Of a stretch of 64,000 nucleotides of DNA, positions 18,942 through 39,473 are shown piece after piece. The stretch is taken from positions 930,001 to 994,000 of the forward strand of contig NZ_WNIJ01000001.1 of assembly GCF_009725755.1 (NCBI RefSeq), given 5' to 3'. The notes beneath the pieces were generated by a model. That model was given only the letters and a program-made list of their open reading frames with translations, did no database searches and was not told the DNA's origin. Positions within the stretch are counted from its first letter, which is position 1, and the number at the start of each line of letters is the position of its first letter. Both the position numbers and the translations under genes were made by a program. This DNA comes from Bombella sp. ESL0385 (GTDB lineage Bacteria; Pseudomonadota; Alphaproteobacteria; Acetobacterales; Acetobacteraceae).

Positions 18942-18959
18942 TTTGTAATTCTGGTGTGT
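18942..18959 (-). promoter_or_regulatory. 18-bp late-unit element, copy 1 (lysis unit)
   Basis: ACACACCAGAATTACAAA on the minus strand, perfect over 18 bases with three other copies in the prophage. It lies in the gap between the 838-residue ejection protein and the lysis unit, 43 bases upstream of the ATG at 18899. Likely a promoter or activator site for phage late transcription. Confidence 0.7.
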
Positions 18960-18968
18960 CCCCCAGGG

Positions 18969-21485
18969 TCATTTGGTCGCATTATAAAGATTGTTGGTTG
19001 GTGAGACTAAGAAACCCTGCCCTTGATTGCGCTGGACGAGCTTTTCATAACGGGCTGTGTAGCCGGGGTTAATCATGTCTTGCAGGCTGTAAATGACGCT
19101 ATATTTCAGGGCGGCATTGATGATAGGAAGATTGCCAAAAGGGATTTGTCCAGAGGCAAAACGGACAAGGTCGGCCAGATAGGTGCGGGCCTTCTCGGCA
19201 TCAGGGCTGCCAACCAGCTCATCACGGGTGGCGGTGAATATCCCGGCTAGTTTGGTCATGTCAGAAATGGTTGGTCCGGCTAGCGTTTCTAGCATGTTAT
19301 TGCCCATACGGCTCTGCTGGCCAAAGAGGAAATCGCCATAAATACCCGCACCACCACCCTGGCCCATGGCGGATATCCATGTGCGAACATCGCCTGCATC
19401 GCGTGGCTCTTTCCCGGCCAATATGGCTTTAGCCTGCATAGCGACATAGCCAAGCAAGGTTGTAGCGGCAATCATGTGGGCAATGCCCGGTAGGTCTAGC
19501 CCGTTGCGCTTCACCTCACGTTGATAAAGCCTGCGAACATGGGAAATGGGGAAGCTCTTAAATTGTAGCATCAGCCGTGCGGCCTGGCCGAGTAGCGGGT
19601 TCACGTCATCCAGCCGGTTGCTGATGCCCCTGAAGGTAGCCTGCGTGCGGACATCCGGCTCTGTCATGCCTTCTCGTGTTTGGTCGGTGATGTAGGCATA
19701 GAGCTTGCGGGTCAGGCTGTCCCGTATGTCATCTGCAGTTTGGCCTTTCTCGATTAGGGGAGCCACAGCCTCATCGGGCAATTGGCCTATCTCGCTGGGT
19801 AGGATATGGTCTTCTCCTGCCGCTGTCCGCACGGCCTGCCGCATCACGTCCCATTCTGGTTGGGTGATACCAAAGCGTTGCAGGCTGGCCCGCAATCGTC
19901 CATCAAGGGCTTCATATCCTAGGCCAGCATTCCGGCCAAGATTATGGGAAAGCATCAGGCCGATGCCTTCTGAGAGGCTATCTGTCCAATATTCCAGACC
20001 ATTGAAGCGGTAAAACTTATTGATGAGGTCGCTCATCTTTCCTAATGGCGCATCATTGGCAGAGAAGCGGCTCATGACAGAGCCAAGATGCCCTTGCAGC
20101 CCCACGCCCAGCATGCGGGCGACCTCTTTGCGTTCTTGAGGGTTTGCGCTGAATAACGCTGGGGCTAGAGATTTAAGGCTGTTCCAATAGCTTTCCAGCA
20201 ACGGCACACCATTATGCCGCAAAACGGAGGCATTAACAGCAAGGTCGGGTAGGGAGGAAATGACGACCCCGCCTAGTTTTGTGACTTGGTTCCATGCATG
20301 AGCATAGGCGCCGATGGTTTCCACTGTCTTGTTGGCCGGCTGTCTGGCCCTGCCTGTCACGATGTCCAGCAGGGCACTGCGTTCCAACCGGCGGAGCTTA
20401 TCTACCATTTTAGCATCGGCACGGTCACGCGCCGCCTGCACGGATTCCTCAATCATGCTGCGGAACATGCTCTCAGGGTTCGTACCTAAATCACCCATCA
20501 CGGCGGCGTTGCGTGCGCCACTGATAAGCCCTTTGAAGATGCTGTCCACCACATGGCCTTGGCCGAACTTTTTGTTGTAGGCCAACCAGCCATCAGCATC
20601 TTTGAAGTGTAGAACACGGTTCTGGCTGACCTTCTTGGCTTTGTTGGATGTGCCTTTGAAGCCAGAGAGCCAATCCCGCCCGTTGGCGTTATCATGCTCA
20701 CCTGTGGAGAGGTTAAGCCATACATTGCGGAGGAAGTCTTCCTTCGACTGCTTGGCGGGCATCATCTCAAAAGTACGGTCATCAAGTAGAGGGAGGATGG
20801 TGTCCCGCCAGTTCTGGTAAGACCTTTCCGACCCATCGCCTCGTATCTTCCACATGTCATGGCTCTGGCGGGTGACGTAATGATCCGCCTTGCCAATCCA
20901 TGCGCCTTGCTTGTTTTGCATCAGCCGCACGGTGTCTTGATACTCAGACAGGATGCGGGCAGCCTCGGCAGCCAGCTTATTGCCTGTTGGGGACCCTGCT
21001 TCTGGGTCATCAAGACGCCACATCTCACGCGCCACATCAGCATCGAATTGTTCATCGCGCTCTAATAGAGCTTTAAAAACGCCCGCTTTATCTAAATCAT
21101 GCATCAGAGGGCCAAGAAGCTGAGCAACACGGCCATGACTATGCGCATCTACAGAGAGGGCGGCATCACGTTCCCCGGTTTGCTTCCCGGCGAGAATACC
21201 TTCAAGGGAAGCCGCTTCATCTCCAGCAACGATGCGGCGGCGTAACTCAGCACGGACGATGAGGTTCTTCTTGCGGGCATTAGCCTCGATGATGGCGGCC
21301 AGACGCTCCTCATCAGCCATACGAGCACCAGCTTTCTCCAAGGCTTCACGCGGGGAGAGGCCTTGCTGCATGTAGCGGCCAGCTTCTTTTTCCAGCCGCC
21401 CAAACATCTCATCAAGCTCTGCCTTGGACATTTCACGGCCAGCGGCTTGCTCGGCTTCGTTGTAGCATGGATGTTCGTGCGTCAT
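18969..21485 (-). CDS. Large internal virion / DNA-ejection protein
   Basis: An 838-residue protein, mostly helical, with a Glu/Ala-rich N-terminal coiled region (SKAELDEMFGRLEKEAGRYM) and a more hydrophobic C-terminal third (HMIAATTLLGYVAMQAKAIL, SRMGNNMLETLAGPTISDM). It resembles large podovirus proteins placed after tail genes and called internal virion or polyvalent proteins, which are ejected into the host with the genome. The gene overlaps the upstream 926-residue gene by ATGA, so they are made together. No enzymatic motif is evident. Confidence 0.7.
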   Translation of the reverse strand: MTHEHPCYNEAEQAAGREMSKAELDEMFGRLEKEAGRYMQQGLSPREALEKAGARMADEERLAAIIEANARKKNLIVRAELRRRIVAGDEAASLEGILAGKQTGERDAALSVDAHSHGRVAQLLGPLMHDLDKAGVFKALLERDEQFDADVAREMWRLDDPEAGSPTGNKLAAEAARILSEYQDTVRLMQNKQGAWIGKADHYVTRQSHDMWKIRGDGSERSYQNWRDTILPLLDDRTFEMMPAKQSKEDFLRNVWLNLSTGEHDNANGRDWLSGFKGTSNKAKKVSQNRVLHFKDADGWLAYNKKFGQGHVVDSIFKGLISGARNAAVMGDLGTNPESMFRSMIEESVQAARDRADAKMVDKLRRLERSALLDIVTGRARQPANKTVETIGAYAHAWNQVTKLGGVVISSLPDLAVNASVLRHNGVPLLESYWNSLKSLAPALFSANPQERKEVARMLGVGLQGHLGSVMSRFSANDAPLGKMSDLINKFYRFNGLEYWTDSLSEGIGLMLSHNLGRNAGLGYEALDGRLRASLQRFGITQPEWDVMRQAVRTAAGEDHILPSEIGQLPDEAVAPLIEKGQTADDIRDSLTRKLYAYITDQTREGMTEPDVRTQATFRGISNRLDDVNPLLGQAARLMLQFKSFPISHVRRLYQREVKRNGLDLPGIAHMIAATTLLGYVAMQAKAILAGKEPRDAGDVRTWISAMGQGGGAGIYGDFLFGQQSRMGNNMLETLAGPTISDMTKLAGIFTATRDELVGSPDAEKARTYLADLVRFASGQIPFGNLPIINAALKYSVIYSLQDMINPGYTARYEKLVQRNQGQGFLVSPTNNLYNATK

Positions 21486-24262
21486 AGGGCTTTCCTTGTT
21501 AGGCAGGCGGCAGCGGAGGCGAGGGCATCGGCATTACCATCGGAGAGAGCTTTCTCACGGTGGATGTCTGCCAGTTCTTCAGGGCTGATCTGGTCGCCTA
21601 GGGCGGCAAGCTGCTGGTCGATCTGGTCGGAATAGGACTGTGCTTCAGTGATGGATTTATCTTGACTTTTGGGGGCAGTGTTTTCATTTTGTAAGAAGCT
21701 GTTGTGGCGTTCGTCATCTCTCCCAGACCTCAGAGTATCGGACATATTTTGCTCGTGGGGATTAAAGGAGTCGGAACCCTGTCCGGTTGGGTTCGAATTG
21801 GTGTTGAGATCCTTTTCCCACAGCAGCTTTCTGTTTTTCAGATAACCTGTTTTGAATTCATCGGCTGTTCCAACACGGTAATAGCCATCTTTTTTGATGA
21901 GATGCAGTACTGTAGTGGGGTGTTTATGTTTCGACCCCTGTTTATCTCCCATTTTCACGGTGAAGAAAGAACCATTTCCTTCATCTAGGCGAACCTGATT
22001 TGCATCAGCAATAGCCCGCTTTACAAAGTCATCAATACTAGCAAAGCCACGCTTCTTTAGCTCTTCACCATGCCGGGCAGAAATATGAAGGCGACCATGG
22101 CCTCCGCCAATATCTTGGCCCTTCCCATTAATTTTAACGGTATGCACGCCATCACCCAACACGATAGGCCATGCTGGCGCGCCATCCACCCCTTCCATCA
22201 TACGTCCTACTAAAGCAGGATTGCTTCCTACCTCTGAAAGGTCCAGATGCTCAATGCTACTAGCAGGCAGGGGAGACGTATTTTGCCCATGTCTTGGGCT
22301 GGGGGAGGCATCTTTTAAGGCAGAAAGGCCCGCGCGGCTTTGTGTGACTTCATGGCTTTCATACCCATGGAGGTTCCGCATGATGGCCTCAGCCGCATCA
22401 TTCTGCAAGGCATCAAGCTTTTGCTTTGCGGTTTGATAGGCTTCCTCTACATACCCTTGCCAGCTAGTAGCATCATGGCCTTTGCCGCGCTCTGCTTCGA
22501 TAGTCCGTAATGCGCTCTCTACGGCATCTTCTGTCCCGTTATGCTTTAGGATGGCATCTGCCATATCATACAAATCCATCCCATCTAGGGCGGCATCAAG
22601 GTGTTGCGCATAAAGGCCAAGGCGTTCACGGGTCAGGGCATGTAGAAGATTTTGCTGCTCACCGATGCGGCTCCTATGGAAAGCCCTCCCATGGTCGAGC
22701 ATTTCTTCATAACGCTGCCATGTGGAGTGACGAGATACGCGCAAAGCGTCCTCAATGGCGGCATCAGGATGGGCACCGGATAGGATGGTATTAATAGCGT
22801 GATTATGTTCATCAGGCGTTAGGTCAACATCTGCTGCATTGGCAGCTTCATCAACATCATCGGCTGCTTGTTCTCGATAATGGTCCTCAATGTTTGATAG
22901 GTCTGATGGGTGCTGAGACAATACGCCCTCAGGAAAAACCTTACGCCCATGGCTTTCTTCTATCATGGCCTCTAAGAGGTCATTGATGTCAGCATCAGGC
23001 TTGAGGTAACCATGCTCAACGGATAGTTCGCGCGCTTTATCCAGAGGCATCCCTCCGTTGCGGCGGACAAGCCCGATGCGTTGACGGTGAATGTCATTCG
23101 CTTTTAGCTCTCCCCCTTCATCAAGTACCCCGCCATGACGGGTGAGGAAGGTAAAGAGGGATGGGGCCGTTGGCTGTGGTTTTGTGATTGAAGTGGATGG
23201 GGGAATGTCTATATCAGTAGAGGCATCCTCATCAGGCGGCTCATAAAGAGAGCTTTCACTTACTGTGTCAGCATGATTTTGTTGGAGTTGCGAGAGGTCG
23301 TCTGCAATTTTATCCCGTAAAGGAACGTGCGTATCTACGTCCGTGTCCGTAGGCAACGCGTCATGCGAAGCTACAACGCGCTCAAGCTCATCTTTGGAAT
23401 TTTGGACTTCGTGGATATTGAGCAGGCTTTCTGCATTGCTAGGCGTATCACTGGCTAGAGATGTTAGACCATCAGCTAAAACCTGCCCTTTGGCATTAGT
23501 ACCAGCCCTTTCGAGCCTTTTACTAAGAGTGTAGCCAATCCCATGCAGTCCACCGCCCATGACGCCACCAAATGCGATGTTCCGTAGGGCCTGTCCCGCG
23601 CTCCAATCATTATGCTCATCGCGGTCCAGAACCATATTGAGCGGCTCAAGGGCGGCCATGCCAATGGCCCCTTGGCTGGCACCTTGCACTATACGCCCCG
23701 GAAGATTGCTGGATAAAGCGGCCCCAACGCGCCGGTTTAGTCCTTCGGCAGAAATAAGACCATCGGCCACACGTTCCATGCCAAAGCCCTCGGCACGAGC
23801 TGCGGCACCTCCCAGGGCCATGCCGATGCGTTCTTCCCCCAGACCAGGAATCAGCGCAGCAGCATAGTTGATGGGGTCTAGGAAAGAGGGAAGGGCACCT
23901 GCTGCTGTGTTCAGTATGCCGTTTATAGGCCCATCTGGTCCGTTGCGGATGGTATTCTGCCGAATAAGGTTGTTCTGTTTTTCCTCATTGAGGGTTTGGG
24001 CTAAAGCGGAAGAGACAGGCTTGTCGAAATTAAGCACCCCTTTGATGCCATAGCGCGCATTGGCATCTTCTGGAGTAAGGGTATCTCCCTCGCTGCTTTT
24101 GACTTCATGGCGTATCCAGTCACCAATGCGGACGACCGGCATATCGTTAATGCCTGCCGTAAAGGAGGCACCAAGAGATTGCTCCAAGGATGACGCCTGC
24201 CCTGCTAGCCCTTCATCCTGAACGCTCTTGAGTGTGTTCAGCCCGCCTGAAAATAATGACAT
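21482..24262 (-). CDS. Polyvalent internal virion protein with embedded nuclease-like domain
   Basis: A 926-residue protein starting with glycine/alanine-rich helices (residues 110-260, for example AIGMAALEPLNMVLDRDEHN and IAFGGVMGGGLHGIGYTLSK) typical of proteins that cross membranes during genome ejection. Residues 670-820 look like a separate globular domain: GGHGRLHISARHGEELKKRG, FTVKMGDKQGSKHKHPTTVL, and DGYYRVGTADEFKTGYLKNR. This pattern resembles the barnase/EndoU/colicin-E5/RelE-like nuclease domains found in phage polyvalent proteins. First gene after late element copy 2, with GGGAGGGG directly before its ATG. Confidence 0.7.
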   Translation of the reverse strand: MSLFSGGLNTLKSVQDEGLAGQASSLEQSLGASFTAGINDMPVVRIGDWIRHEVKSSEGDTLTPEDANARYGIKGVLNFDKPVSSALAQTLNEEKQNNLIRQNTIRNGPDGPINGILNTAAGALPSFLDPINYAAALIPGLGEERIGMALGGAAARAEGFGMERVADGLISAEGLNRRVGAALSSNLPGRIVQGASQGAIGMAALEPLNMVLDRDEHNDWSAGQALRNIAFGGVMGGGLHGIGYTLSKRLERAGTNAKGQVLADGLTSLASDTPSNAESLLNIHEVQNSKDELERVVASHDALPTDTDVDTHVPLRDKIADDLSQLQQNHADTVSESSLYEPPDEDASTDIDIPPSTSITKPQPTAPSLFTFLTRHGGVLDEGGELKANDIHRQRIGLVRRNGGMPLDKARELSVEHGYLKPDADINDLLEAMIEESHGRKVFPEGVLSQHPSDLSNIEDHYREQAADDVDEAANAADVDLTPDEHNHAINTILSGAHPDAAIEDALRVSRHSTWQRYEEMLDHGRAFHRSRIGEQQNLLHALTRERLGLYAQHLDAALDGMDLYDMADAILKHNGTEDAVESALRTIEAERGKGHDATSWQGYVEEAYQTAKQKLDALQNDAAEAIMRNLHGYESHEVTQSRAGLSALKDASPSPRHGQNTSPLPASSIEHLDLSEVGSNPALVGRMMEGVDGAPAWPIVLGDGVHTVKINGKGQDIGGGHGRLHISARHGEELKKRGFASIDDFVKRAIADANQVRLDEGNGSFFTVKMGDKQGSKHKHPTTVLHLIKKDGYYRVGTADEFKTGYLKNRKLLWEKDLNTNSNPTGQGSDSFNPHEQNMSDTLRSGRDDERHNSFLQNENTAPKSQDKSITEAQSYSDQIDQQLAALGDQISPEELADIHREKALSDGNADALASAAACLTRKAL

Positions 24263-24296
24263 ATCCCCTCCCGGTGGGGGAGGAGCATGGCAGCCA

Positions 24297-24314
24297 TTTG
24301 TAATTCTGGTGTGT
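24297..24314 (-). promoter_or_regulatory. 18-bp late-unit element, copy 2 (ejection unit)
   Basis: Perfect ACACACCAGAATTACAAA on the minus strand between two convergent-free minus genes, 35 bases upstream of the ATG at 24262. Its downstream flank (ATGGCTGCCATGCTC) matches copy 3 at 13 of 15 bases, so the similarity extends past the 18-bp core for this pair. Confidence 0.7.
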
Positions 24315-24315
24315 C

Positions 24316-26589
24316 TTAATCACCCAACTCCACATCCACACTAACGCTCGTGAGTGTTACGGGTAGTGGTTGGTCAGTTTGAAAGATGAGACTTCCCTTC
24401 TGGGTCCAGTTGGGCGTTGGTATCCTCATGGTTAGTCCAGAGATAAGGGCTGGCCTAACGTCCTTCTTCTGGTAAGGATTGGGAGCCATGCTTCCGGCAG
24501 CGGCACCTTGATTGTCCAAATCATGGAATGTGCGACCCTCATTTGTGGACACGCTCAGGCCGGTTGTGTTGTAGAGCGAGGCATAAACCTTGCTGACCCG
24601 CTTGCGCCGTGCGAATTGGGGAGGATTACCGAGGTCTATTGGTAGAGTGACAGCACGCGCATGGATGGGCAAACCGACTGTAACCACACTGCCTGACCGG
24701 GGCAGGGTGAGGGTGCCATCATTCCTCACTGTCAGCCCTGTAAATCCTTGCCCATCAATGCAGGCCGATACTGTGGCACCTGCCAAATGCCCCAGCCCAG
24801 AGACGGTGCTAGTTGGCTGGCCTTCATAGCGCAGGCCACAATCCACGAACCATGAGCGGGTGATGTCATCATTCTCTGCCCCTAGTTGGCGAGATTGTAG
24901 GCGTTCTATAGTGTAGCTTTGTCGTCCATTAATAGTACGTTTTACCACCAGATAAGGGGTATCTTCGATAGCTCCATATCCGTTTTCTTCTGGCACTACG
25001 GCCACGGACTGGAAGGCCCCGCCTACTGTACTGTGCTGATGCCATGCCATGACGTTCTGTTCTTTAAGATAGGTCATACTCAGCAAACCTCCATCAGACC
25101 TTACGGCCCATATGAGGTTGAATGGGAATTGAGCAAACGACCAGTCGGCAATCGTGTAGCCATAGAAGAGATGGTCAGCCAGAACGGATAGGTCGTTGCC
25201 TTGGTATATTTGGGCATACCAGTCATATTGCAGGTCACGGATATGGCTGCCCTTGTTTTCAATGAACAGCACGTCAGTATTGATGGGCAGGGGCTGCACG
25301 TCCGAGCTGCCAACGAACATCTGCGGTATGGCGGTGAAGTTGCTTGGTGTTATGGGAGTGCCAGTCTGGCCTCCGGAGATCTTCCAGATGCCCGTTCCGG
25401 TAAAAGCCAGAAGGTCCGCCATTGGTACCAGATGCTTAATGGTATTGACCTGCTGGCTAGCAATAGTGGCTGTTATGGCGTCATCAGAAACGACCGGTGT
25501 ATGAATGTCGAAATTGGTATAGTTGGCCGAGCGGGACATCCAGACCGTCTGGGGATAGGCAAAAGACCCGGCAAATACGCGCCGCTGCTGGAAATACGTT
25601 ACTGTAACAGGATTATTGCCAGCAAATGGGTTACGATGAACCGGCGGCCCATTTTCGGTATCTGGGGAATAATTAACGTCATCAAAGGATAGGGACGTTG
25701 TGTTACCGATTAAGCCCCATTGGCCAGCAAACCGGCGGTAAATATTATAATAATCAGCACCTACAACGGAAGGCCATGAAAGTGTATTATAATTACCGTA
25801 ATTTGTATAATATCCAATATTGTAGTTTGTAACAAACCGCCCAACTTGGACAGGTACTTGAGACGTCACAGTGCTGGTTTTGCCAGTTGCAGGGTCCGTA
25901 ATTGTCTGGGTTTGAGTGGTCATCTCCGTTTGAGAAGGAACAAGAGTTGCGTTACTCTCCGTATTCCTCTCATTAGAAACAGAGGTTACCGCATATTCGT
26001 AAGTAACGCGAGATACCCCTGGCGTTGTGCCTGTATTTCCTGCCTCGCCTTCTACAGCGTTTGCAGAGAGTGAATCAGGAGCAGAAATGCCCGCGCTATA
26101 GGAAATCGCCTCTAGTGTCCAATTAATCTCACCATGACGAGATAGATTCATGGCGGGATAGCGGGAATGGGTGAGGGTCATGACATCCGCAGATTGCGCA
26201 TGACGCAGCCAGAAAGCGTCCTCGATGTTGTAAGGCGTGGCCAGCTCATAAGGACTACCATCCTGATTGGTCAGATAGGCACCATTGCTGATGAAGCGGA
26301 CGTAATGGTCGCCAAACTCTAGTACATAGGACTGATTGTTGTTGTAGATGAAGGCAATTAGCTTCGGAGGCAGGCCAGACGCATCAGCTTTTGATGTGCC
26401 GATATATTGGGTGCCAGGGCGGTTTGAGATACCACCCTGCACATGCACAAAGAAATTGCTTAGCTCAGCTGCCCCGGAATGCCATTTTTCCATATCAGCA
26501 CGATAACCAATCAGCGGGGCCATAACCCCACCGCTGAAATTGCTGAACCATGTTAAGCCAACGTTAGGACCAAAAGATTGTTGTGACAT
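24316..26589 (-). CDS. Tail tubular protein B-like / tail nozzle protein
   Basis: A 757-residue structural protein with the podovirus signature start WFSNFSGGVMAPLIGYRADM and LSNFFVHVQGGISNRPGTQY, followed by a long beta-rich body. It matches the family that forms the lower tail tube (T7 gp12-type) in BPP-1-like and related podoviruses. It is the last gene of the capsid-tail unit and overlaps the tail-fibre-assembly-like gene by one base. Late element copy 2 begins directly after its stop region. Confidence 0.8.
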   Translation of the reverse strand: MSQQSFGPNVGLTWFSNFSGGVMAPLIGYRADMEKWHSGAAELSNFFVHVQGGISNRPGTQYIGTSKADASGLPPKLIAFIYNNNQSYVLEFGDHYVRFISNGAYLTNQDGSPYELATPYNIEDAFWLRHAQSADVMTLTHSRYPAMNLSRHGEINWTLEAISYSAGISAPDSLSANAVEGEAGNTGTTPGVSRVTYEYAVTSVSNERNTESNATLVPSQTEMTTQTQTITDPATGKTSTVTSQVPVQVGRFVTNYNIGYYTNYGNYNTLSWPSVVGADYYNIYRRFAGQWGLIGNTTSLSFDDVNYSPDTENGPPVHRNPFAGNNPVTVTYFQQRRVFAGSFAYPQTVWMSRSANYTNFDIHTPVVSDDAITATIASQQVNTIKHLVPMADLLAFTGTGIWKISGGQTGTPITPSNFTAIPQMFVGSSDVQPLPINTDVLFIENKGSHIRDLQYDWYAQIYQGNDLSVLADHLFYGYTIADWSFAQFPFNLIWAVRSDGGLLSMTYLKEQNVMAWHQHSTVGGAFQSVAVVPEENGYGAIEDTPYLVVKRTINGRQSYTIERLQSRQLGAENDDITRSWFVDCGLRYEGQPTSTVSGLGHLAGATVSACIDGQGFTGLTVRNDGTLTLPRSGSVVTVGLPIHARAVTLPIDLGNPPQFARRKRVSKVYASLYNTTGLSVSTNEGRTFHDLDNQGAAAGSMAPNPYQKKDVRPALISGLTMRIPTPNWTQKGSLIFQTDQPLPVTLTSVSVDVELGD

Positions 26590-27086
26590 TATGTTGTTAG
26601 ATCGTTAGGTACGGATGGCAGCGTTGTGCTAGTTGTATCTACACCGTTAATAATCGCACGTAGTTTTTGAGCGCATTGCCGAGTTTCAGGACCAAAAACT
26701 TCTCCCATTGCTGTGAGTGCTGATGCTTGGGACATTATACGCTGCAATGTGCTCTGCGCCCTGTCTTTTAACGGCAGAGGAGGGGGTGTATATGTAACAA
26801 TCTGTCCGTTTTGAACTGCTTTTGGCTCCTGCGTTGATGTGAGGTGGCTTTCCCAAAACTCTTTGGTAAGTGGGAGTAATTCGCTCAGCGGAGGCAGTCC
26901 CTTAGGTGAATTAAAATTCGCCATATCATACCACCCTGTAACAGGAGATGGTTCTGCAATTGCTGGGTCATAACCGGCATAAAACCTTTTTGGATAGGCA
27001 GATTGTACAGCGGTGGATTGAAACGAATCTACTTCAGAAGATGAACCAAATATTTTGTCTGTGTAAAAATCAGAAGATTGCGTCAT
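26589..27086 (-). CDS. Putative tail fibre assembly chaperone
   Basis: A 165-residue protein placed immediately after the tail fibre gene (ATGA overlap). It has the layout of Tfa-like proteins: an aromatic-rich first half with YAGYDPAIAEPSPVTGWYDM, then LTKEFWESHL and a helical C-terminal part. Such chaperones help fold the fibre tip. Sequence evidence is modest; context is the main argument. Confidence 0.55.
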   Translation of the reverse strand: MTQSSDFYTDKIFGSSSEVDSFQSTAVQSAYPKRFYAGYDPAIAEPSPVTGWYDMANFNSPKGLPPLSELLPLTKEFWESHLTSTQEPKAVQNGQIVTYTPPPLPLKDRAQSTLQRIMSQASALTAMGEVFGPETRQCAQKLRAIINGVDTTSTTLPSVPNDLTT

Positions 27087-28946: not shown

Positions 28947-28952
28947 CAGGAA

Positions 28953-29225: not shown

Positions 29226-29233
29226 GTTAGACC

Positions 29234-29671
29234 TCACGCCACATAATTTTTCGGATAAGCCAAATAAGCGGGCACATCCAAGTTAATGCCAGCCGTAACA
29301 GAGCCAGACGTCAGGGCCTGAGCAGGATTATATGTTAGGCGCATATAGCGATATGGCTTGTTAGAGAAAGCTGGCTTAGCGCGCACAGCAAAGGGTTGCG
29401 CCGCACTAATGCTGGAGAGGTCGATAGTTGGCAACTCTTCCAATGTCGTCCAGTTTTGGTTATCAGCCGACACTTGGATTTTGACCCCCAGATGACCTGT
29501 TGTAGGGGCGGGTAGAGAAGGGAACTCTACCCAGACCTTGAACCCCTCTGTTGGTCCAAAATCCCGCGCCTGTGAGAAGTCAATGACGTTAGTAGAAGGC
29601 GTATCCTGCCCAGCAGGTGCCTGTGTGAGGTCTTGAGCGGTGGAGAAATTAAGCAGTTTATCAGTAATCAT
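29234..29671 (-). CDS. Bbp16-like capsid cement/decoration protein
   Basis: A 145-residue protein starting MITDKLLNFSTAQDLTQAPA with STNVIDFSQARDFGPTEGF, a recognisable signature of the Bbp16 capsid protein of Bordetella phage BPP-1 and relatives. These proteins stabilise the capsid shell. It follows the major capsid gene by 12 bases. Confidence 0.8.
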   Translation of the reverse strand: MITDKLLNFSTAQDLTQAPAGQDTPSTNVIDFSQARDFGPTEGFKVWVEFPSLPAPTTGHLGVKIQVSADNQNWTTLEELPTIDLSSISAAQPFAVRAKPAFSNKPYRYMRLTYNPAQALTSGSVTAGINLDVPAYLAYPKNYVA

Positions 29672-29683
29672 GTAACGTATCCT

Positions 29684-30736: not shown

Positions 30737-30748
30737 GGTTTATCCTTG

Positions 30749-31453: not shown

Positions 31454-31496
31454 ACGCGCACTCCATCATTCATGATGAAGGCGAGCGTGGCAGCCG

Positions 31497-31514
31497 TTTG
31501 TAATTCTGGTGTGT
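31497..31514 (-). promoter_or_regulatory. 18-bp late-unit element, copy 3 (capsid-tail unit)
   Basis: Perfect ACACACCAGAATTACAAA on the minus strand, 44 bases upstream of the scaffold gene and directly downstream of the AT-rich cargo insert. The flank CGGCTGCCACGCTC resembles that of copy 2. Confidence 0.7.
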
Positions 31515-31708: not shown

Positions 31709-32572
31709 TCACTTCTTTGCTCTCACTCCTTCAGGTTTTTCTGCGTATAACGTATCAAGAAAATCGTATTTTGTTTTGCTTGGAGAATTTCGAAAACAAT
31801 CTCTCATCCTATTGAGGAATGAAAAATCAATTTCTTCAATATTTTTTAAATTCATATTAAAAAATGCATTGAAAGGTAACGGATTAATATACCTAGATCC
31901 ATATGCACTATCCTCGGCAAGATTAGCTTCTACAGATATTTTTTTCCGTTTTGGCTTATTAGTTTTTAATAACTGCATGGCCATATTTTCTGCATAAATC
32001 CAAACAGATCTAGTATGAATTGTTGCTTTTTTTGATGTATCAGTTCCAATACCATTTATATTTTCTATTATACTATTATCTGTCTTAAGAAAAATCGCAC
32101 ATTCTATGTCATCCATGATTTTTTGCAAAGAAACAACCAGAGATATTTGTAATAAAGCCGTTGTTATATTTCTTGTCTTATAATCATAATATCCATTTCT
32201 TTTTTTACAGTATATATTATCAATATGATAAAGAAGCTGACTATAATGACCCCACTCCCATGAATCAACAAAACATTTTAAATTAAATTCTTTTTCTAAA
32301 AATCCAACTAAAGCTTTAACTTTTTCATCATCATTATGAGAATGAGATATGAATATATCAAATTCATTATTTTTTATTGGAAACATATGATTGTTTATTT
32401 CGTTCATATCTAAGTTTCTACCCTTTTTAGGGAGATAAGATTTTACTTTTTCCAATATACTATCTTTATATTTTGATTTTGATCTTGATTGCTTTTCACC
32501 ATATTGAATATAACATGCATGGTTCGTTAAAGAATCAATTTTTTTCTGATCTATGACGTACTGAGCATACAT
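31709..32572 (-). CDS. TIR-domain protein, AT-rich prophage cargo
   Basis: A 287-residue protein (from ATG 32572). Residues 71-81 read FDIFISHSHND, the beta-A strand and box 1 of bacterial TIR domains, followed by helix KVKALVGFLEKEFNLK and beta-B CFVDSW at about 100-105; a Glu in the following segment is a candidate catalytic residue. Bacterial TIR proteins of this kind cleave NAD+ or make signalling nucleotides in anti-phage defence. A+T is far higher than in flanking structural genes, a sign of recent acquisition. It is head-to-head with a membrane-protein gene, only 11 bases apart. The C-terminal part is unrecognised. Confidence 0.75.
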   Translation of the reverse strand: MYAQYVIDQKKIDSLTNHACYIQYGEKQSRSKSKYKDSILEKVKSYLPKKGRNLDMNEINNHMFPIKNNEFDIFISHSHNDDEKVKALVGFLEKEFNLKCFVDSWEWGHYSQLLYHIDNIYCKKRNGYYDYKTRNITTALLQISLVVSLQKIMDDIECAIFLKTDNSIIENINGIGTDTSKKATIHTRSVWIYAENMAMQLLKTNKPKRKKISVEANLAEDSAYGSRYINPLPFNAFFNMNLKNIEEIDFSFLNRMRDCFRNSPSKTKYDFLDTLYAEKPEGVRAKK

Positions 32573-32583
32573 AAGGAGCCTCC
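32573..32583. promoter_or_regulatory. Shared 11-bp palindromic Shine-Dalgarno between divergent cargo genes
   Basis: The whole gap between the two start codons is AAGGAGCCTCC. Read on the plus strand it offers AAGGAG before ATG 32584; read on the minus strand it is GGAGGCTCCTT before ATG 32572. No room is left for promoters, so each promoter must lie inside the opposite coding region. Confidence 0.7.
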
Positions 32584-33099
32584 ATGATTGATTATCACTC
32601 ACAAGAAATAGTATCATATCTTAATCTAATTCAGAATATAATTACTCGTTTTTCAAATCACAATGTAACTGTGAGAAACTGGACTATTGTATCCCTAATA
32701 GGTTTATTATCATTTGAAGCCTCATATAAAATTGATATACTTTGTGACATTGCAATAAATATAGTTTTAATTGGACTATTTTTATGCATGAGTTTATTTT
32801 ATCATAACTTGATAAGAAAATATATATATTTGTACAATAAAGTACTAAAAGATAAAAAAGTACATAATTATATATTTCAAATATCCTTTAAAAATATGAG
32901 CATTTCAGAAGAGGAGAATTTTCCATCCTTTTTCAAATCTTTTCGAACGTCAAAATTCAATATATTTTTTTCAATTATAATAATGTTATCTGCTATATTT
33001 ATACCATTCTTAATACCTAATGGAGAACATTCAATTTTTCTCCTTGATATAACTAAGGATACCACAAATCATCTAGTAATTGACTTGATCAAAAAATAG
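32584..33099 (+). CDS. AT-rich multi-TM membrane protein partnered with the TIR gene
   Basis: A 171-residue protein with a short N-terminal helix (YHSQEIVSYLNLIQNIITRF), two adjacent hydrophobic segments (TIVSLIGLLSFEASYKIDIL and IAINIVLIGLFLCMSLFYHN), a cytoplasmic basic helix (LIRKYIYLYNKVLKDKKVHN) and a further hydrophobic pair near residues 125-150. The layout recalls SLATT-type two-TM effectors that disrupt membranes in conflict systems, but I cannot confirm the family. It is divergent from the TIR gene, with the same extreme A+T content, and is the only plus-strand gene amid the late region. Confidence 0.65.
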   Translation: MIDYHSQEIVSYLNLIQNIITRFSNHNVTVRNWTIVSLIGLLSFEASYKIDILCDIAINIVLIGLFLCMSLFYHNLIRKYIYLYNKVLKDKKVHNYIFQISFKNMSISEEENFPSFFKSFRTSKFNIFFSIIIMLSAIFIPFLIPNGEHSIFLLDITKDTTNHLVIDLIKK

Positions 33100-33322: not shown

Positions 33323-33350
33323 TCAATCCCCGCCCCCAAACCCCACCTTT

Positions 33351-36131
33351 TCAAAGATGAAGATTGAACTTTTTCCAATTTTCTACCGCTATCTTACGAT
33401 CTGGTCCATATCGCCCTGCCAGAATATCATCCCTTCTGACAATAATCGGGTTTCCATCCCGGCCTTGTAGATACTGCCACTCGCCGGGTGCGGTTTTGCT
33501 GGGTATCATGAGGCTATAGCCGTTGCCATTGGCGTTATCATTCGCAACCCATTTGCCTGTAGAGCGCGCATTATCAAGCACTTGTTCGTTGGAGAGCTTC
33601 TCGCTAACGCCAGGTAGGGCGGCGACTGAAATATCATCAGGCTTTAGCTGCGACATAAACATCGCTAGAGCATCCTGCGTTGTGTCCATCTCACCCTTTG
33701 GCGTCCTTAGATAGCCTGATGTATCGTATTTTAAGTCCACAATATCCTTGCGCGCTTTGGTTATGGCGTCGCTAATGCTCAGACCTTTGCCCATATAGCC
33801 CATAGCTTGCATCTTCATCGTGTCGTAAATGTTGCGATAAGCGGTTTCTCCACCTTTTTGCAGCATCATAGTTTGGCGTAAATCAGCCAGACTATTGCCC
33901 ACAGGGTCATTGCTGGCTGTGGCGTTGAGCTGGCTAGCCTCCGGGCCAGCTAGACGTTTCAGATCATCCGGGCTTGTCTGAAGATTACGCTGTAAAATAT
34001 CCCGCGCTACACCCTGCTGTGGCGTATCCATATTAGCGATAACGGCATATGGTGCGGGAAGGCCACTTTGCACAAGCTCATTCAACACGCCATCCCATGC
34101 TTTGCCATAATGCTGCTTCATGCCGTCCATGATGGGAGCGATTTTCTGCTTCGTTGTATCAACCCCAGCAAGGCCAGAAATGATGTTATGGGCTTGGTCG
34201 CTGGTTAGATAACGCGGATTAGATACACCAATCATCTGCTGCACGGACCGCAGTTTCCCAGCATAGGCCGCAAAGGCTTCCGGCGTCTGGTTCTGCTGAT
34301 AGTTCTGCCATGCTTGTTGTACAGCGGGATGCCCAGCAGCATAGCCCGCCGGGTCATCATTAAGGGCTTTCATGCGCCGGGCCATAGCTTGTTGTAGATG
34401 GGCATTTATTTGGGCGCGAGTAGCAAAGTCATCCACATTCGCATCACCAAGAGCGGCTTGAGACGCTTGCATGTAGGCCCCGACCTGCGCTGGTGTGGCC
34501 CATTTTAGGGCATTGAGGGCCAGCCCGGCCTGTCGCCTCTCATTGAGGCCGGAGACGATGCGGTCAGCCTCATCAGGCTGGTAGAGCGACCTAATTTGCT
34601 GTTCGGGTACTTGATTTTGCGTATTGCCATTCATGTAGGCAGATGAAAGGTCATTGATTTGCCCATGCAGTGAGGCTCTTGCATCCCGTGTTTGTGCCTC
34701 CCACAACGCATTATTATGCATAGCGCGGGACATGGCATGGTCCTCAATCTCCTGCCCATAACCACGCTCCTGAGATACCTGGTGGATTTCTGCCAACTTA
34801 GCAGAAAGGTCCGGTGGTGTGGCTGAGGGAGCGGGGGCATTGCGCGACAGAGATGATGCAACGCGCGAGACATAACGCTGGGTTTCAGCGTAAGGAATGG
34901 CCTGAACAAATTGTTCATCACTGATGGCCCCGGTGCGCGGGTCGCCATATTGCTTCAGCCATTTATCAACCGTTCCCGGCCCCGCATTATAGGCGGCACA
35001 TGCCAACGTTTGGTTGTTGCCATACTTATCGCAGAGCTGGTGGAAGTAGGCCTGCCCCAGCGCGCGGTTATAATTCTCATCATGCAGGAAGCGGTTCTCA
35101 TCCCACGGGATGCCAACGCGCTTGGCTGTTTCCTCTGCCGTGGCTGGGAGCATCTGGGCTATGCCGATGGCTCCCTTGCCAGAGGTTATGGTGTTGCCAT
35201 CTTTATCTTTCTGCCGTCCACCGCTTTCTGCAAGAAGCATATTTTGCATCGTAGCGGCTGGGTCAGCATCGGCTGGGACGGCTTGCGGACCGCCATGGTC
35301 ATTCCAGACCTCATTGGCGAGGTTGTCCCCGACCTGCCTATTATATTCAGGCCTGATGGAAGCCATCGTCTGGGCAAAGACGGGAGCCGAGATGTTCTTC
35401 TCGTTAGAGAGCAGCATGTTACGGGCACTAATGGCATCACCCTTCTGCGCTGCTGCAATAATGGCCGTGTGAAAGTAGCTATCGTTCCAGTTTTGGATAT
35501 TGGCCAGCGTGACAGGATGGTCAGCCCCATATCCTAGCGTGGCATTGCGGGCAATAATGCTCTGCTTACCCTGTGCATAGGCATTAGCAAATGCTGCCGG
35601 ATTGTCGCTGTTAGCAGCCCCGCTGCTGGCAAGGGAGGAGAGCGTGGCGTCTTGTACATTGTCCTGATAACGCTGTCGTTGCCCTGCTGCATGGGCAGCC
35701 ATGCTCCCTAGCGCACCATTCATGAAAGGTTCGCTTTCCTGAGCAAAGATGCGCTGTTGGGCGGGTGTCAGGCCATTCATGAGGCCTTGTTGATATTGCC
35801 GGAAGCCATCAGCCGTTGGCTGCCATGCATCAAGGGCTGATTTATCTTGCAGTCCTAAAAACCCCGGCTTTGTCGGGTCTTGTGGGTCACCATATTGTAC
35901 GATGCGGCCATGGTCGCGAAGGTCATTCATGGCATTTTGCACAGCGGTGATGTCATCTTGCCGTTGCAGGCGGAAGGCGGCATCAGCCATATCTCCAAGG
36001 CCCTGGCCAAATTGCCCCAGCCCACGGGCAATCACGCCGCCATAGTTGGGGACATTCAGTACCTCAGTGCCACCAGCAGTGACCCTATCGGGGAGTTTAT
36101 ACAGTTCATCTGTGTAGGGGACTTGCGGCAT
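33351..36131 (-). CDS. Internal virion protein with lytic transglycosylase (SLT) domain
   Basis: A 926-residue virion protein. Residues about 295-395 form a soluble lytic transglycosylase domain: MLLAESGGRQ (catalytic Glu), GAIGIAQMLPATAEETAKRV and NQTLACAAYNAGPGTVDKWL. The rest is helical, Gln/Ala-rich, matching a T7 gp16-like core protein that drills through peptidoglycan during genome entry. The enzyme domain is internal rather than at the very N-terminus as in T7 gp16. It follows gp13- and gp14-like genes, completing the internal core set. Confidence 0.85.
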   Translation of the reverse strand: MPQVPYTDELYKLPDRVTAGGTEVLNVPNYGGVIARGLGQFGQGLGDMADAAFRLQRQDDITAVQNAMNDLRDHGRIVQYGDPQDPTKPGFLGLQDKSALDAWQPTADGFRQYQQGLMNGLTPAQQRIFAQESEPFMNGALGSMAAHAAGQRQRYQDNVQDATLSSLASSGAANSDNPAAFANAYAQGKQSIIARNATLGYGADHPVTLANIQNWNDSYFHTAIIAAAQKGDAISARNMLLSNEKNISAPVFAQTMASIRPEYNRQVGDNLANEVWNDHGGPQAVPADADPAATMQNMLLAESGGRQKDKDGNTITSGKGAIGIAQMLPATAEETAKRVGIPWDENRFLHDENYNRALGQAYFHQLCDKYGNNQTLACAAYNAGPGTVDKWLKQYGDPRTGAISDEQFVQAIPYAETQRYVSRVASSLSRNAPAPSATPPDLSAKLAEIHQVSQERGYGQEIEDHAMSRAMHNNALWEAQTRDARASLHGQINDLSSAYMNGNTQNQVPEQQIRSLYQPDEADRIVSGLNERRQAGLALNALKWATPAQVGAYMQASQAALGDANVDDFATRAQINAHLQQAMARRMKALNDDPAGYAAGHPAVQQAWQNYQQNQTPEAFAAYAGKLRSVQQMIGVSNPRYLTSDQAHNIISGLAGVDTTKQKIAPIMDGMKQHYGKAWDGVLNELVQSGLPAPYAVIANMDTPQQGVARDILQRNLQTSPDDLKRLAGPEASQLNATASNDPVGNSLADLRQTMMLQKGGETAYRNIYDTMKMQAMGYMGKGLSISDAITKARKDIVDLKYDTSGYLRTPKGEMDTTQDALAMFMSQLKPDDISVAALPGVSEKLSNEQVLDNARSTGKWVANDNANGNGYSLMIPSKTAPGEWQYLQGRDGNPIIVRRDDILAGRYGPDRKIAVENWKKFNLHL

Positions 36132-36134
36132 GGA

Positions 36135-36746
36135 TTACGCTTTCCATGGGGAAGGAGTTGAAGATGATGCTCCGGCTATGCTGTGGCCACTACCATTGAA
36201 GGGGTCGTTGAATGATGAGTTGCTAGCACTGCTAGCCATGTCATTCCATTTCGGAGAAAAGGCAGAGACACTTTGCGCAATCGAGCCAGTTGCTCCTAAT
36301 GCACCAGAAGCCCAAGCTGAGGGCGTGCTCGCAGCAGCAATGCGCGCTTGGTTATTATAGGAGATTGCTTGATTGCTATAGGCCGTAGATTGTGTGGAAG
36401 CGTTATATTGGTCCGTTCCTACAGATAAGCCCGTATCCCGCGCCGTGGATTGTTGTACGTCTAAAGCGGAACCACTGGATGTATCCACGCCATTTGCGGC
36501 TAAGAATGCCCGTTGTGCTGCTAAATGCTGGTCGCCTTGTTGGTAGTCGCGCTGGGCATTCAGATAGCCTTGGTCGATGGAGTTTTGCGACGCCTGTGAG
36601 GCAACTTGAGCCTGCTGTTTGCTCTGCTCTTCTTGAGCGCGGTTTGATGCTGCCTGACCCTGAGCAGCAATGAGCGCACTAGATGCAGAAGCCGCAGCAG
36701 ATACGCCAGCAGCGACAGCCCCTAATACTCCTAGCGCAATACACAT
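36135..36746 (-). CDS. T7 gp14-like internal virion protein
   Basis: A 203-residue protein starting with a hydrophobic Ala/Gly segment (LGVLGAVAAGVSAAASASSA) and continuing with Gln/Ser-rich helix (SNRAQEEQSKQQAQVASQAS). That layout and position match gp14-like core proteins, which form a pore in the outer membrane at the beginning of ejection. It overlaps the upstream GNAT-like gene by one base. Confidence 0.72.
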   Translation of the reverse strand: MCIALGVLGAVAAGVSAAASASSALIAAQGQAASNRAQEEQSKQQAQVASQASQNSIDQGYLNAQRDYQQGDQHLAAQRAFLAANGVDTSSGSALDVQQSTARDTGLSVGTDQYNASTQSTAYSNQAISYNNQARIAAASTPSAWASGALGATGSIAQSVSAFSPKWNDMASSASNSSFNDPFNGSGHSIAGASSSTPSPWKA

Positions 36747-37207
36747 TATAGGCCTCCTTGCATCTCAAATCGACAAAACATAGCCCCTGCCAGTCCAATT
36801 GGCTGTGGTGTGCCGATGGAAAAGCCAAGCCATGAGAGCCAGCGTATGGCCCCGCTGTAGCTGGCATCGACATGGTTCATGAGTAATGGATAGTTTCTTT
36901 GCCATTGCCGTACCCAAAAGCGTGTTTCTTTTAGGAAAGTCTTTTGATGGAGATTTATGGCATCTGTCCCCACCAACCACGGGATGCCGATGCCCAGTTT
37001 GGGAGCCACACCAAATAGAGCCACAGGCTGCCCATCATCCAAAAATAGGCCAGCCATACCGCCTTTCTTGGACTCTTCTACGCTCCGGCGCATAGCGGGG
37101 ATAATATGGCCATGCCCAGCGCGGATGACTTCCAGTGCATCATTGCGGCGGAGCAGGGGAGCAATGAGGTCGGCATCAGATGGTTCTGCGAAGCGGAATG
37201 TGAGCAT
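36746..37207 (-). CDS. GNAT-fold internal virion protein (T7 gp13-like)
   Basis: A 153-residue protein with acetyltransferase-like order: FRFAEPSDADLIAPLLR at the N-terminus, GLFLDDGQPVALFGVAPKL and SYSGAIRWLSWLGFSIGTPQ at the C-terminal substrate region. The acetyl-CoA loop (Q/R-x-x-G-x-G/A) is not convincing. Podoviruses of this type carry such a GNAT-like gp13 counterpart next to gp14, so a structural rather than enzymatic role is likely. Confidence 0.7.
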   Translation of the reverse strand: MLTFRFAEPSDADLIAPLLRRNDALEVIRAGHGHIIPAMRRSVEESKKGGMAGLFLDDGQPVALFGVAPKLGIGIPWLVGTDAINLHQKTFLKETRFWVRQWQRNYPLLMNHVDASYSGAIRWLSWLGFSIGTPQPIGLAGAMFCRFEMQGGL

Positions 37208-37208
37208 G

Positions 37209-37475
37209 TCAGTGCTTTCTTAGGGCGTCTGCCATCCAGTCTGTCAGCTGGATGCCGATGCTGCGCTGGCCTTCACGATAGGCCGTTGCCCCGGTATCTC
37301 CCGGCACGAATGATGCTCGGTCCCGGCCTGTAGCGAGAATGATGCGCTGGATGAGACGTTTCCCTTCTGGCAGTGCTAGAACGGCCTGAATGTCAGATTG
37401 CTCTTGCGTTGCGCGCGCTTTACGGCGGCGTCCGTGGTCCTTGATCTGTTCCTCATCATGTGGGTCGATCGTCAT
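37209..37475 (-). CDS. Bbp19-like phage protein
   Basis: An 88-residue protein with VLALPEGKRLIQRIILATGR and TGATAYREGQRSIGIQLTDW, the signature of Bbp19-type proteins from BPP-1-like phages. Function is not established; it lies between portal and core genes. Confidence 0.72.
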   Translation of the reverse strand: MTIDPHDEEQIKDHGRRRKARATQEQSDIQAVLALPEGKRLIQRIILATGRDRASFVPGDTGATAYREGQRSIGIQLTDWMADALRKH

Positions 37476-37480
37476 TTCTG

Positions 37481-39226
37481 TTACCCCTGTGCTCCGGCTG
37501 CAAAACTGCCCATGATTGCCTGTAGGGCGTTCGTGCCACCTCCGACATCCGTATCGGAGAGTGTCTTGGCCCCTGTGGCCAATTGTTGGGCTTGCGCGGC
37601 CATTTGCTGCTGCTGTTGTTGATAAGCGCGCTGCTGCCTTTGCTGCGCTACAAAATCGGGGTCACGCAGGATAGACGGGTCAACACCTAAAAGGTCCCCG
37701 TAACGGTCAATAGCCGCATCTAGGTCGAGATTATCTAAGATGGATGGGTCGGCCCCAGCTAAAGAGCCAGCAAAGCGGACGATTTGCTCGATACCGGTCG
37801 TCTCCGTGGCCCGCTGGGCCTGTGCCATGATGGAGCTGTAGGCGATTTTGATATTATGGCCGTTCAGCTCATCAGGTCGGGGCAAGATGAGACCATGACG
37901 CTCCATGATTTCTAGCGTTGTCGTAATGATGGGGTCTAACGCCTCATTATGGAACCGCTCTAGCACCGGACCGAGCGTGAGCATCTTTTCTTGCTGACGA
38001 ACATTAATCTCCGCAGCTGTTACGGGTTGGGTCGTCTCCATACCCTGCGAGACCATCAAGATTAGGTCATTCCGCAACGTCTTTCGTATTTGGTCCTGAA
38101 ACTCGGCAATGCGCTGTTGCAGCGGGGTTATATTAGGGTTGACTTGATAGACAGGTCGAATACCCGCACCAGCCCCAGCGGCATTGAGCCCCGGAATGAA
38201 GTTTAGTCCTCCAGGCAGAAGGTTCACCATGGTTTCCTGCAATGACGCATCAGCCATCGTGGGAGGGCGAGCATATTTATCGATGGCCTCAGCTAGCCTG
38301 ACCTGTGCGACCTGCAATGATTTAATATCAGGTAAAGCATCTTCACCAGGTCCATGGCCGTAGGCATCATTACTGGCTGTGGACCAGCGGGGCGCAATGA
38401 AGGGCTTGCGAGGATAGGCCTCGATAAGGAGGGCCGGATGCGTGTCGTTGCCATACTCATAATAGATGCCGATATAGGGTGCACCCTGCCAGCCAAACGC
38501 GCCGGCAATGCGGGAGCTATTGGGCATGATGGCATGGACGATGGGTAGCTCGACCGTAAGCTGTCGACTTTCCCATAGAGATTGAACGGTCGGTGACACG
38601 TTCTCCAGCCCAAAACGCTGGACAATCTGAGCTACGTTTTGGACGTATTCACGAAAGAGCGTATCCACTTCGCCACGGTCATTCTGGGCAAGGTAATATT
38701 CCCCTGCCGTGAGCGGATAGAAGCGGACGATATCCTCATAATCCTGAAGGATGATGCAGGCCGCCGTACCAAACCCGGCAAGCTCCTCGTAAGTCTGGCT
38801 CATGGCGGCATAGAAGTTTCCCGTTGCTAGCACCCGTTGCAAGCGGGACTTGGTGTCGGACAGCCAGCGTTTGATATTATCGTCATCATTTAGCTGGTCA
38901 TTATTCGTCTCCAATCGGAACCAGTCACGGGCAGGGGACGTGATGCCCGCCATGAGGAAAGCTGCTAGATTGCCAAGTGCGATTGACCCCGTCTTATCTA
39001 CAATCTGCGGACCCTTAATACGCCCACGGCTAGATTGGTTTGGCACATGGAAATAACGCCCCCGTGTCGGTAGAATATAATGGCTTATCTCACGCCATGT
39101 ATCCCGCCAGACAAGCCTATCAGAACGCATCATGACGAGCCTGCGGTCCGCCTCATCGCGGAGGGACTGCATACCGGTTTCATCACGCATTAACGGAGGC
39201 TGTTTTGTAACGGGGGTCTTGGCCAT
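37481..39226 (-). CDS. Portal protein (head-tail connector)
   Basis: A 581-residue protein of the podovirus head-tail connector family: SDRLVWRDTWREISHYILPT near the start, GSIALGNLAAFLMAGITSPA, RDWFRL and YEELAGFGTAACIILQD, with a helical Gln-rich C-terminal barrel region (QQRQQRAYQQQQQQMAAQAQ). It forms the dodecameric ring for DNA packaging. Located 2 bases downstream of the small gene at 39228. Confidence 0.9.
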   Translation of the reverse strand: MAKTPVTKQPPLMRDETGMQSLRDEADRRLVMMRSDRLVWRDTWREISHYILPTRGRYFHVPNQSSRGRIKGPQIVDKTGSIALGNLAAFLMAGITSPARDWFRLETNNDQLNDDDNIKRWLSDTKSRLQRVLATGNFYAAMSQTYEELAGFGTAACIILQDYEDIVRFYPLTAGEYYLAQNDRGEVDTLFREYVQNVAQIVQRFGLENVSPTVQSLWESRQLTVELPIVHAIMPNSSRIAGAFGWQGAPYIGIYYEYGNDTHPALLIEAYPRKPFIAPRWSTASNDAYGHGPGEDALPDIKSLQVAQVRLAEAIDKYARPPTMADASLQETMVNLLPGGLNFIPGLNAAGAGAGIRPVYQVNPNITPLQQRIAEFQDQIRKTLRNDLILMVSQGMETTQPVTAAEINVRQQEKMLTLGPVLERFHNEALDPIITTTLEIMERHGLILPRPDELNGHNIKIAYSSIMAQAQRATETTGIEQIVRFAGSLAGADPSILDNLDLDAAIDRYGDLLGVDPSILRDPDFVAQQRQQRAYQQQQQQMAAQAQQLATGAKTLSDTDVGGGTNALQAIMGSFAAGAQG

Positions 39227-39227
39227 A

Positions 39228-39434
39228 TTAGCCGCCGAGCAGCGTCTTCGGTGCGCTGTTATTTGTCTGTGTGAGGCCCTGCGAACCGGTTAGCAGGGTT
39301 GAATTAAATCCCCCAGCTAACTTAGCAGCATTAGTAGCCTGTTGCGCCTGCTGCTTACCGGCCTGCGTAACCGGGGTTGCAGGGGACGGAGTAGGGAGCG
39401 GAGTAGCGAGATGAGGTGTAGATGATGAGCACAT
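39228..39434 (-). CDS. Small phage protein upstream of portal
   Basis: A 68-residue, proline- and glutamine-rich protein (PHLATPLPTPSPATPVTQAG) with no recognised domain. Its ATG is 22 bases from late element copy 4 and it ends 2 bases before the portal gene, so it is probably expressed as the first gene of that unit. Confidence 0.6.
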   Translation of the reverse strand: MCSSSTPHLATPLPTPSPATPVTQAGKQQAQQATNAAKLAGGFNSTLLTGSQGLTQTNNSAPKTLLGG

Positions 39435-39455
39435 AATGCGCCATCATCGGGGGCG

Positions 39456-39473
39456 TTTGTAATTCTGGTGTGT
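39456..39473 (-). promoter_or_regulatory. 18-bp late-unit element, copy 4 (portal-core unit)
   Basis: Perfect ACACACCAGAATTACAAA on the minus strand in the gap after terL, 22 bases upstream of the ATG at 39434. A GATGATGG lies just downstream, as it does near copy 1 and (as ATGATGG) near copy 3. Confidence 0.7.

Follow-up and report, generated by a model that had tools for sequence, protein, structure and literature searches.

What turns on, together, the separate blocks of late genes in a temperate phage? The question is raised by a prophage in a 64,000-nucleotide (nt) stretch of Bombella sp. ESL0385 (contig NZ_WNIJ01000001.1, positions 930,001 to 994,000 of the forward strand; hereafter the window), a temperate podophage of the BPP-1 type in a bee-associated, Bombella-type acetic acid bacterium, in which the 18-mer ACACACCAGAATTACAAA recurs before gene blocks. 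A scan of the window found four exact copies, all on the minus strand and all where the first-pass annotation had placed them: A (39456-39473), B (31497-31514), C (24297-24314), and D (18942-18959). That annotation had seen no further copy by eye, and indeed no other match was found with up to three mismatches in the window (0.03 expected; none of 100 shuffles reached four) or with up to two in the 1.9-Mb host genome. From comparison with related phages, we conclude that the four elements are probably activator-dependent late promoters read by the host sigma-70 RNA polymerase, with a 111-amino-acid (aa) winged-helix protein of the prophage as the likely activator; transcription itself, a start near +20, and the identity of the factor are what we infer from this comparison.

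Each copy heads a block of genes on the minus strand; the contents of units A-C were assigned by PHROGs, and the elements at all four heads were compared with those of class I prophages (described below). Copy A, found at this head in all five class I prophages compared, precedes the portal/core block (unit A, 33351-39434: a 68-aa gene, portal, an 88-aa gene, internal virion proteins, and a 926-aa endolysin-like protein), and copy B precedes the protease-capsid-tail block (unit B, 24316-31453: protease, major head protein, and tail genes). Copy C heads two large late genes (unit C, 18969-24262), encoding a 926-aa protein of the unknown-function family phrog_3003 and an 838-aa virion structural protein (phrog_684); copy D heads seven small, tentatively lysis-type genes (unit D, 16837-18899), with an endolysin/transglycosylase-like gene among them and a weak match to Rz-like spanins. 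The portal-core and capsid-tail blocks were thus named correctly at first pass, while its two "ejection" genes are one structural and one unknown-function gene, and its lysis block has weak matches. Likewise, its placement of each copy before a block stands, with distances to the ATG of 21 (A), 43 (B), 34 (C), and 42 nt (D), i.e., 21-43 rather than the 22-44 bases given there. It had also described unrelated upstream flanks and a downstream match of about 14 bases between copies B and C, and both descriptions are accurate: comparing 30-nt upstream flanks gives 27.5% identity from head to head within a phage (60 pairs) and 0.276 for the same head across classes, both as random.

Related Acetobacteraceae prophages carry their own versions of the element at unit heads, and these fall into six classes (45 instances in 14 phages): class I, ACACACCAGAATTACAAAC; class II, CCCnnTAGAACTTATAAAC, varied to ..AGAACTTAGAAA at head D of the two class II phages and at head C of one of them, G201; class III, CCACACGGTACTAACAAAC; class IV, GGTACTAACAAAC; class V, ACACACCGCCCTAACAAAT (one head); and class VI, TCAAATTATAAAC or ..TAATT. 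The search of related phages for the motif upstream of equivalent units, proposed as a check at first pass, thus returned class-specific versions at unit heads in all six classes, but not at every head. Numbered from the last A of the element, A-8, T-6, [T/A]-5, A-4, A-2, A-1, and A+9 are nearly common to all classes. Both class II phages have an extra element (E), which heads internal-virion genes placed apart from the portal. In class III, the two phages whose stretch covers the site, G060 and G409, have element F within an internal-virion gene that is likewise apart from the portal, some 100 nt ahead of the gene that follows. The head B elements of classes III-VI are located within the upstream gene.

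These relatives come from 299 family genomes, in which the winged helix passed the set threshold in six and the portal likewise in six (the window's own genome in both sets; both proteins in G201, G158, G060, and G142), and from a protein-alignment search that matched 13 of 395 genomes plus 14 viral loci, three weak genomes (G379, G292, and G125) being left aside. Excluded from the 45 instances were stretches holding the window's own or a near-identical prophage (L005, L019, L029, L059, and L086) and equivalents of prophages already counted: L008, L023, L024, L056, L082, L042, and L053 (G310); L041 and L051 (G330); L016, L017, L058, and L084 (L006); L020, L057, and L083 (L007); L010 and L085 (G201); L009, L012, and L087 (G158); L090 (G142); L092 and L094 (G060); and L093 (G409). 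Also outside the count are L088 (short) and two B. pluederhausensis stretches, L038 and L045, in which heads B and D are preceded by exact copies. For L006 a head D instance is missing, as its contig ends there. Exact 18-mer copies occur in the same contexts in contigs of B. apis, B. mellum, and B. pluederhausensis, from which the host was judged to be of the Bombella type. Taken by itself, the 18-mer also turns up in unrelated places in public collections: of the stretches with an exact copy, 14 of 23 from viruses and 14 of 20 from genomes hold a single one in another context. Two stretches stand apart: that of G059 (L080, 8 kb) has a portal and neither winged helix nor element, and in G136 (L112, 2019-4802) a winged-helix relative is followed by small lysis-type genes, with no virion genes matched. 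G136 also has a class II-like core inside a lysozyme gene, probably due to coding.

Across the 45 instances, element identity was 0.872 between heads within one phage (60 pairs) versus 0.595 at the same head across classes (159 pairs), and the difference is larger for classes I and II alone (0.872 in 39 pairs versus 0.488 in 38 pairs). This pattern is absent from the leaders, whose identities in the same comparison were 0.345 versus 0.384 overall and 0.363 versus 0.539 in classes I and II. To judge from these alignments, the copies within a phage share one specificity and change in concert, which implies one phage-encoded factor acting in trans.

Behind the elements lies a possible second signal. 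Beginning after 7 nt, the minus strand reads GATGAT at copy A (39443-39448), CACGCT at copy B (31484-31489), and CATGCT at copy C (24284-24289), hexamers that we propose as -10-like; TTACCT at the same position of copy D (18929-18934) keeps the final T, lacks the second-place A, and is the weakest of the four. When classes I and II are split into nine class-head groups, seven of them show the pattern nAnnnT at +8 to +13 (next best offset, 2.2), although the groups are not independent because the heads of these classes are partly homologous. The T at +13 is present in 19/19 class I and 8/10 class II instances, and the A at +9 in 41 of all 45. An ordinary sigma-70 pattern, with a -35 hexamer 16-18 nt before the -10, was not found here: the upstream flanks are random, and no scanned promoter site overlaps an element. 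At head A the ATG stands at +20 to +22, so that a start near +20 would leave a leader of 0-2 nt, in keeping with the lack of a ribosome site at this head.

A comparable arrangement, with a different element, exists in more distant phages. Megablast of the late region against the phage collection gave no match; portal relatives numbered 228 records, including BPP-1 and none above 60% identity, of which 8 were examined for unit-head elements. Five of them, BPP-1, DC33, zth2-2, ctEw122, and ctQRb9 (L119-L120 and L124-L126), whose portals are 37.2-42.2% identical to the window's, share the unit-head element GGGTRCCCGTRYC. Shared 14-mers stand upstream of genes in 4, 3, 4, and 4 regions of BPP-1, DC33, ctQRb9, and zth2-2, respectively, versus maxima of 3, 2, 2, and 2 in eight shuffles each; this search missed ctEw122, which nevertheless carries GGGTRCCCGTRYC. 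Exactly 15 nt behind the 13-mer, TAnnnT is present in 17 of 18 unit-head copies from the five phages (AAAACT in the remaining one) versus 0 of 29 other late-strand matches of the scan, the 18 copies having been picked by eye out of 47 late-strand matches and a further ctQRb9 match near 24444 having failed that scan. Several starts lie 4-7 nt behind the hexamer, as in leaderless mRNA. All five phages also have a Bbp27-type helix-turn-helix (HTH) gene near TerS (in BPP-1 directly before it), a gene found in 13 records overall; its protein family matches are weak HTH domains, none of them OmpR-type. Site and small regulator therefore differ together between the Acetobacteraceae and BPP-1 branches. 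Among the other records, a Bbp27 relative is also present in two Caulobacter phages, Jess A and SR18; their motif GGGGTGCGCATGAT, in three copies, resembles the element in part, with no clear hexamer at a fixed distance. Carin1 has neither a Bbp27 relative (among the 13 records) nor a unit-head element with TAnnnT. A limited literature search found no description of GGGTRCCCGTRYC elements.

In the Acetobacteraceae branch, the protein that most likely acts as late activator, judging from its domain and distribution, is the winged helix encoded at 41406-41741 on the minus strand. Its match to Pfam Trans_reg_C (34.6 bits; cut-off, 26.2) identifies an OmpR/PhoB-type DNA-binding domain, and its AlphaFold2 (AF2) model (pLDDT 89.4) matches the SaeR, PhoP, and PhoB domains in PDB. 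It is not a two-component response regulator, since the domain match spans residues 23-100 of 111 and no receiver domain was found. The protein is present in all 14 phages behind the 45 instances, and among the window's regulator genes only this one turned up in relatives; the HTH_3 gene at 42031-42456 did not, in compared stretches that reach the early regions partly. The recognition-helix segment is constant within classes I (VAVRRSIKKLRG), II (DAVRDCIKNLRG), III (RVIREKISKLRG), and VI (YILKNEIKRIRG) and differs between classes, with one sequence each for classes IV (NTLRHKASVLRG) and V (LALRFHMRSVRG). The sole match of the winged helix in the phage collection was rejected as a relative: it is a response regulator of bacterial origin in MT835528, a record filed as phage that looks bacterial, since recG and a histidine kinase gene are its neighbours (17546-21571 of L117, MT835528.1 from 17555). 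The stretch immediately ahead of the winged-helix gene (41740-41833) is a possible control point, as it holds a promoter-like TTTATA-18-TACAAT and, on either strand, stems that resemble terminators.

Taken together, the comparison shows the placement of the elements, their concerted change, and, for classes I-II as well as the BPP-1 branch, -10-like hexamers at a fixed distance. The first-pass suggestion of a phage-specific promoter is well supported by it, as the elements head units with differing flanks, follow relocated genes, and change in concert, and as the BPP-1-branch element has its fixed TAnnnT. Mechanistically, a phage-encoded protein, most likely the winged helix, would bind each of the four elements and bring the host sigma-70 RNA polymerase to the weak -10 behind it. 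The element would then lie at about -38 to -20 and substitute for the -35 that is missing. One factor would thereby turn on the capsid, tail, large virion, and lysis-type units together, and the portal unit mRNA would be almost leaderless. With the hexamers taken as -10, the Acetobacteraceae and BPP-1-branch sites would both begin at about -37 to -40.

Several observations weigh against this reading. Counted by head type, nAnnnT at +8 is found in 4 of 5; the T at +13 occurs in none of the 16 class III-VI instances, and the A at +9 is absent at class I head D. Two ordinary promoter-like sites stand upstream of copies A and B (39562-39534 and 31596-31568), and terminators precede the elements in 2 of 45 instances. 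Head C of G060, G409, and G396 has no element and head A of L011 no recognisable one, and the internal-virion genes of the same three prophages are also apart from the portal, yet lack an element at their start. As for the activator, between-class element distance showed no significant correlation with the distance of the recognition helix or of the whole winged helix (Mantel-type test, r 0.16 and -0.18, respectively). In G158 (L079) the winged helix and the virion genes are on different contigs; the L087/L012 contig, which is related, has it at 13553 beside a TerS fragment, about 40 kb from the TerS at 53324.

The alternatives differ in where they place the start and in what reads the element. 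The -10 might lie within the element itself ([T/A]AYAAA), with a start at the conserved A+9 and a factor on the class-specific upstream half; TWAYAAA is nearly common to the classes, A+9 is as frequent as stated above, and several leader stems start near +9. Such an internal -10 would, however, have an A where sigma-70 prefers the final T, it leaves nAnnnT at +8 unexplained, and the BPP-1 branch has its hexamer behind the element, so that we regard it as unlikely. The first-pass annotation had found no recognisable single-subunit RNA polymerase in the prophage, and PF00940 likewise has no match in the host genome (G000). A promoter of an unrecognised polymerase of the phage's own, T7-like and starting just behind the element, would fit an uninterrupted signal of 18-19 bp whose AT-rich 3' half is common to the classes, the concerted change, and the large late gene at 21482-24262 that matches an unknown-function family only. 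Set against these are the fixed -10-like hexamers and the rarity of PF00940, which is present in one of 13 genomes or records (four of them virus records, possibly fragments), namely on contig C4 of G060 (25828-27159), whose prophage is on C1; we judge such a polymerase very improbable. An activator working with host polymerase, also raised at first pass, is favoured by the absence of PF00940 and by the winged helix alone turning up in the partly covered relatives.

The elements could also be RNA signals for translation, processing, or stability in late 5' leaders transcribed from an upstream promoter. Folding gave z <= -2.0 in 22 of 38 distinct leaders, with the ribosome site often within the stem. 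Covariation in these stems is weak, however (both sides changed in 1/13 and 2/13 pairs), the intragenic placement of element F and of the class III-VI head B elements does not suit a leader signal, and many BPP-1-branch starts lie 4-7 nt behind the hexamer. Nor was a near-complete small-RNA complement found in the window; on the opposite strand of the relatives' scanned stretches, every match had 3-5 mismatches. We therefore consider an RNA signal improbable, little different in standing from the internal -10. Binding of TerS or another packaging protein, with no regulatory role, would agree with the adjoining winged-helix, TerS, and TerL genes of the window; the placement and orientation of the elements are promoter-like, though, and in G396 (L115), which keeps winged helix, portal, and elements, neither TerS nor TerL of the window found a match. 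This argues against a role of TerS as the factor and leaves the packaging explanation barely credible.

If the elements are promoters as proposed, the leader stems could have a further role. Mean openness of the ribosome site on read-through RNA and on RNA from +20 was 0.39 and 0.70 at head A (13 leaders), 0.23 and 0.35 at B (7), 0.35 and 0.52 at C (7), 0.24 and 0.48 at D (5), and 0.36 and 0.50 at E (2), a comparison that is suggestive at best because a shorter RNA is more open anyway. Read-through RNA with a shuffled 5' part gave 0.45, 0.29, 0.45, 0.40, and 0.44 for A to E. A structural lock of the ribosome site on read-through RNA is thus possible, with the weak covariation noted above. A stem closing the ribosome site in read-through RNA has a precedent in T4 gene e.

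The late strand of the prophage encodes terminase, portal, internal virion proteins, protease, major head protein, and tail proteins; the TerL and TerS genes (39477-41409, minus strand) sit between the winged-helix gene and element A, without an element in front. In L079 (G158), L087, and L012, the winged helix has a TerS fragment beside it and a fuller TerS is found elsewhere, behind tail-fibre repeats, through either rearrangement or an assembly effect; in G396 the terminase pair may have been exchanged. Elsewhere the prophage encodes a single-stranded DNA-binding protein (SSB), a replication initiator, a methylase, a CI-like repressor, and an integrase. Between units A and B, a 302-aa gene (31709-32617, minus strand) has a TIR-domain match below the Pfam cut-off, and its relatives amount to one partial 40% match (L075), with none otherwise seen in the relatives' stretches. 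Beside the CI-like repressor, three genes (47437-50179, plus strand) with ABC-three-component signatures (HNH plus CTD10, MC6, and DUF2326) form a candidate defence module.

Among known systems, phage Mu C is one phage activator serving several late promoters with a poor -35, as proposed here, with another protein family and site. RinA/ArpU-type activators of Firmicutes phages are encoded near terS and activate late genes, as here, but belong to another family and serve one late promoter. PhoB and OmpR, which at pho-box promoters use the same DNA-binding fold as the winged helix, differ in that the phage protein has no receiver domain; the pho box replaces the -35 and stands about 10 nt from the hexamer, compared to 7 nt in this prophage. 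P2 Ogr is likewise one small phage activator for several dispersed late promoters of one consensus. The rearranged units of the P2-like phage Smp131 are reported still to carry P2-type late promoters, and Ogr is a CX2CX22CX4C zinc finger acting on TGT-N12-ACA (PMC3931495). The CX2CX22CX4C finger of Ogr/Delta is not seen in the winged helix (sequence read by eye), and TGT-N12-ACA is absent from -60 to +80 around the four elements. BPP-1, DC33, ctEw122, ctQRb9, and zth2-2 share the virion module and likewise have several unit-head elements, each with a -10-like TAnnnT at fixed distance (17 of 18 copies), and differ in having GGGTRCCCGTRYC and a Bbp27-type HTH in place of the 18-mer and the OmpR-type winged helix. 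A literature search of partial coverage found no description of Acetobacteraceae late elements, and the accessible portions of three papers on phages of acetic acid bacteria or Bombella (PMC8566455, PMC9147383, and PMC12282179) do not describe such elements.

Tentatively, and with rather less confidence than in the promoters themselves, we hypothesize that BPP-1-type podophages may keep one late-promoter frame (a site from about -40, a weak -10 at fixed distance, and often a nearly leaderless mRNA) but swap activator and site jointly. One branch would pair GGGTRCCCGTRYC with a Bbp27-type HTH; the Acetobacteraceae branch would pair a lone OmpR-type winged helix with sites re-specified at least six times, all copies in a phage changing together. 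At some heads, moreover, the late start would fall within the stem by which read-through RNA keeps its ribosome site closed. The six classes would then be a natural series of matched regulator/site pairs, in which a single kind of small winged helix meets a different target in each class, repeated within the genome, and the additional branch with unrelated regulator and site extends this series. Two questions thereby become testable, namely the specificity of OmpR/PhoB-type domains and the joint change of a regulator and its three to five sites. For work in acetic acid bacteria, the series may also yield activator-promoter pairs that are orthogonal to each other. A late switch is thereby proposed for the phage group that includes the model phage BPP-1.

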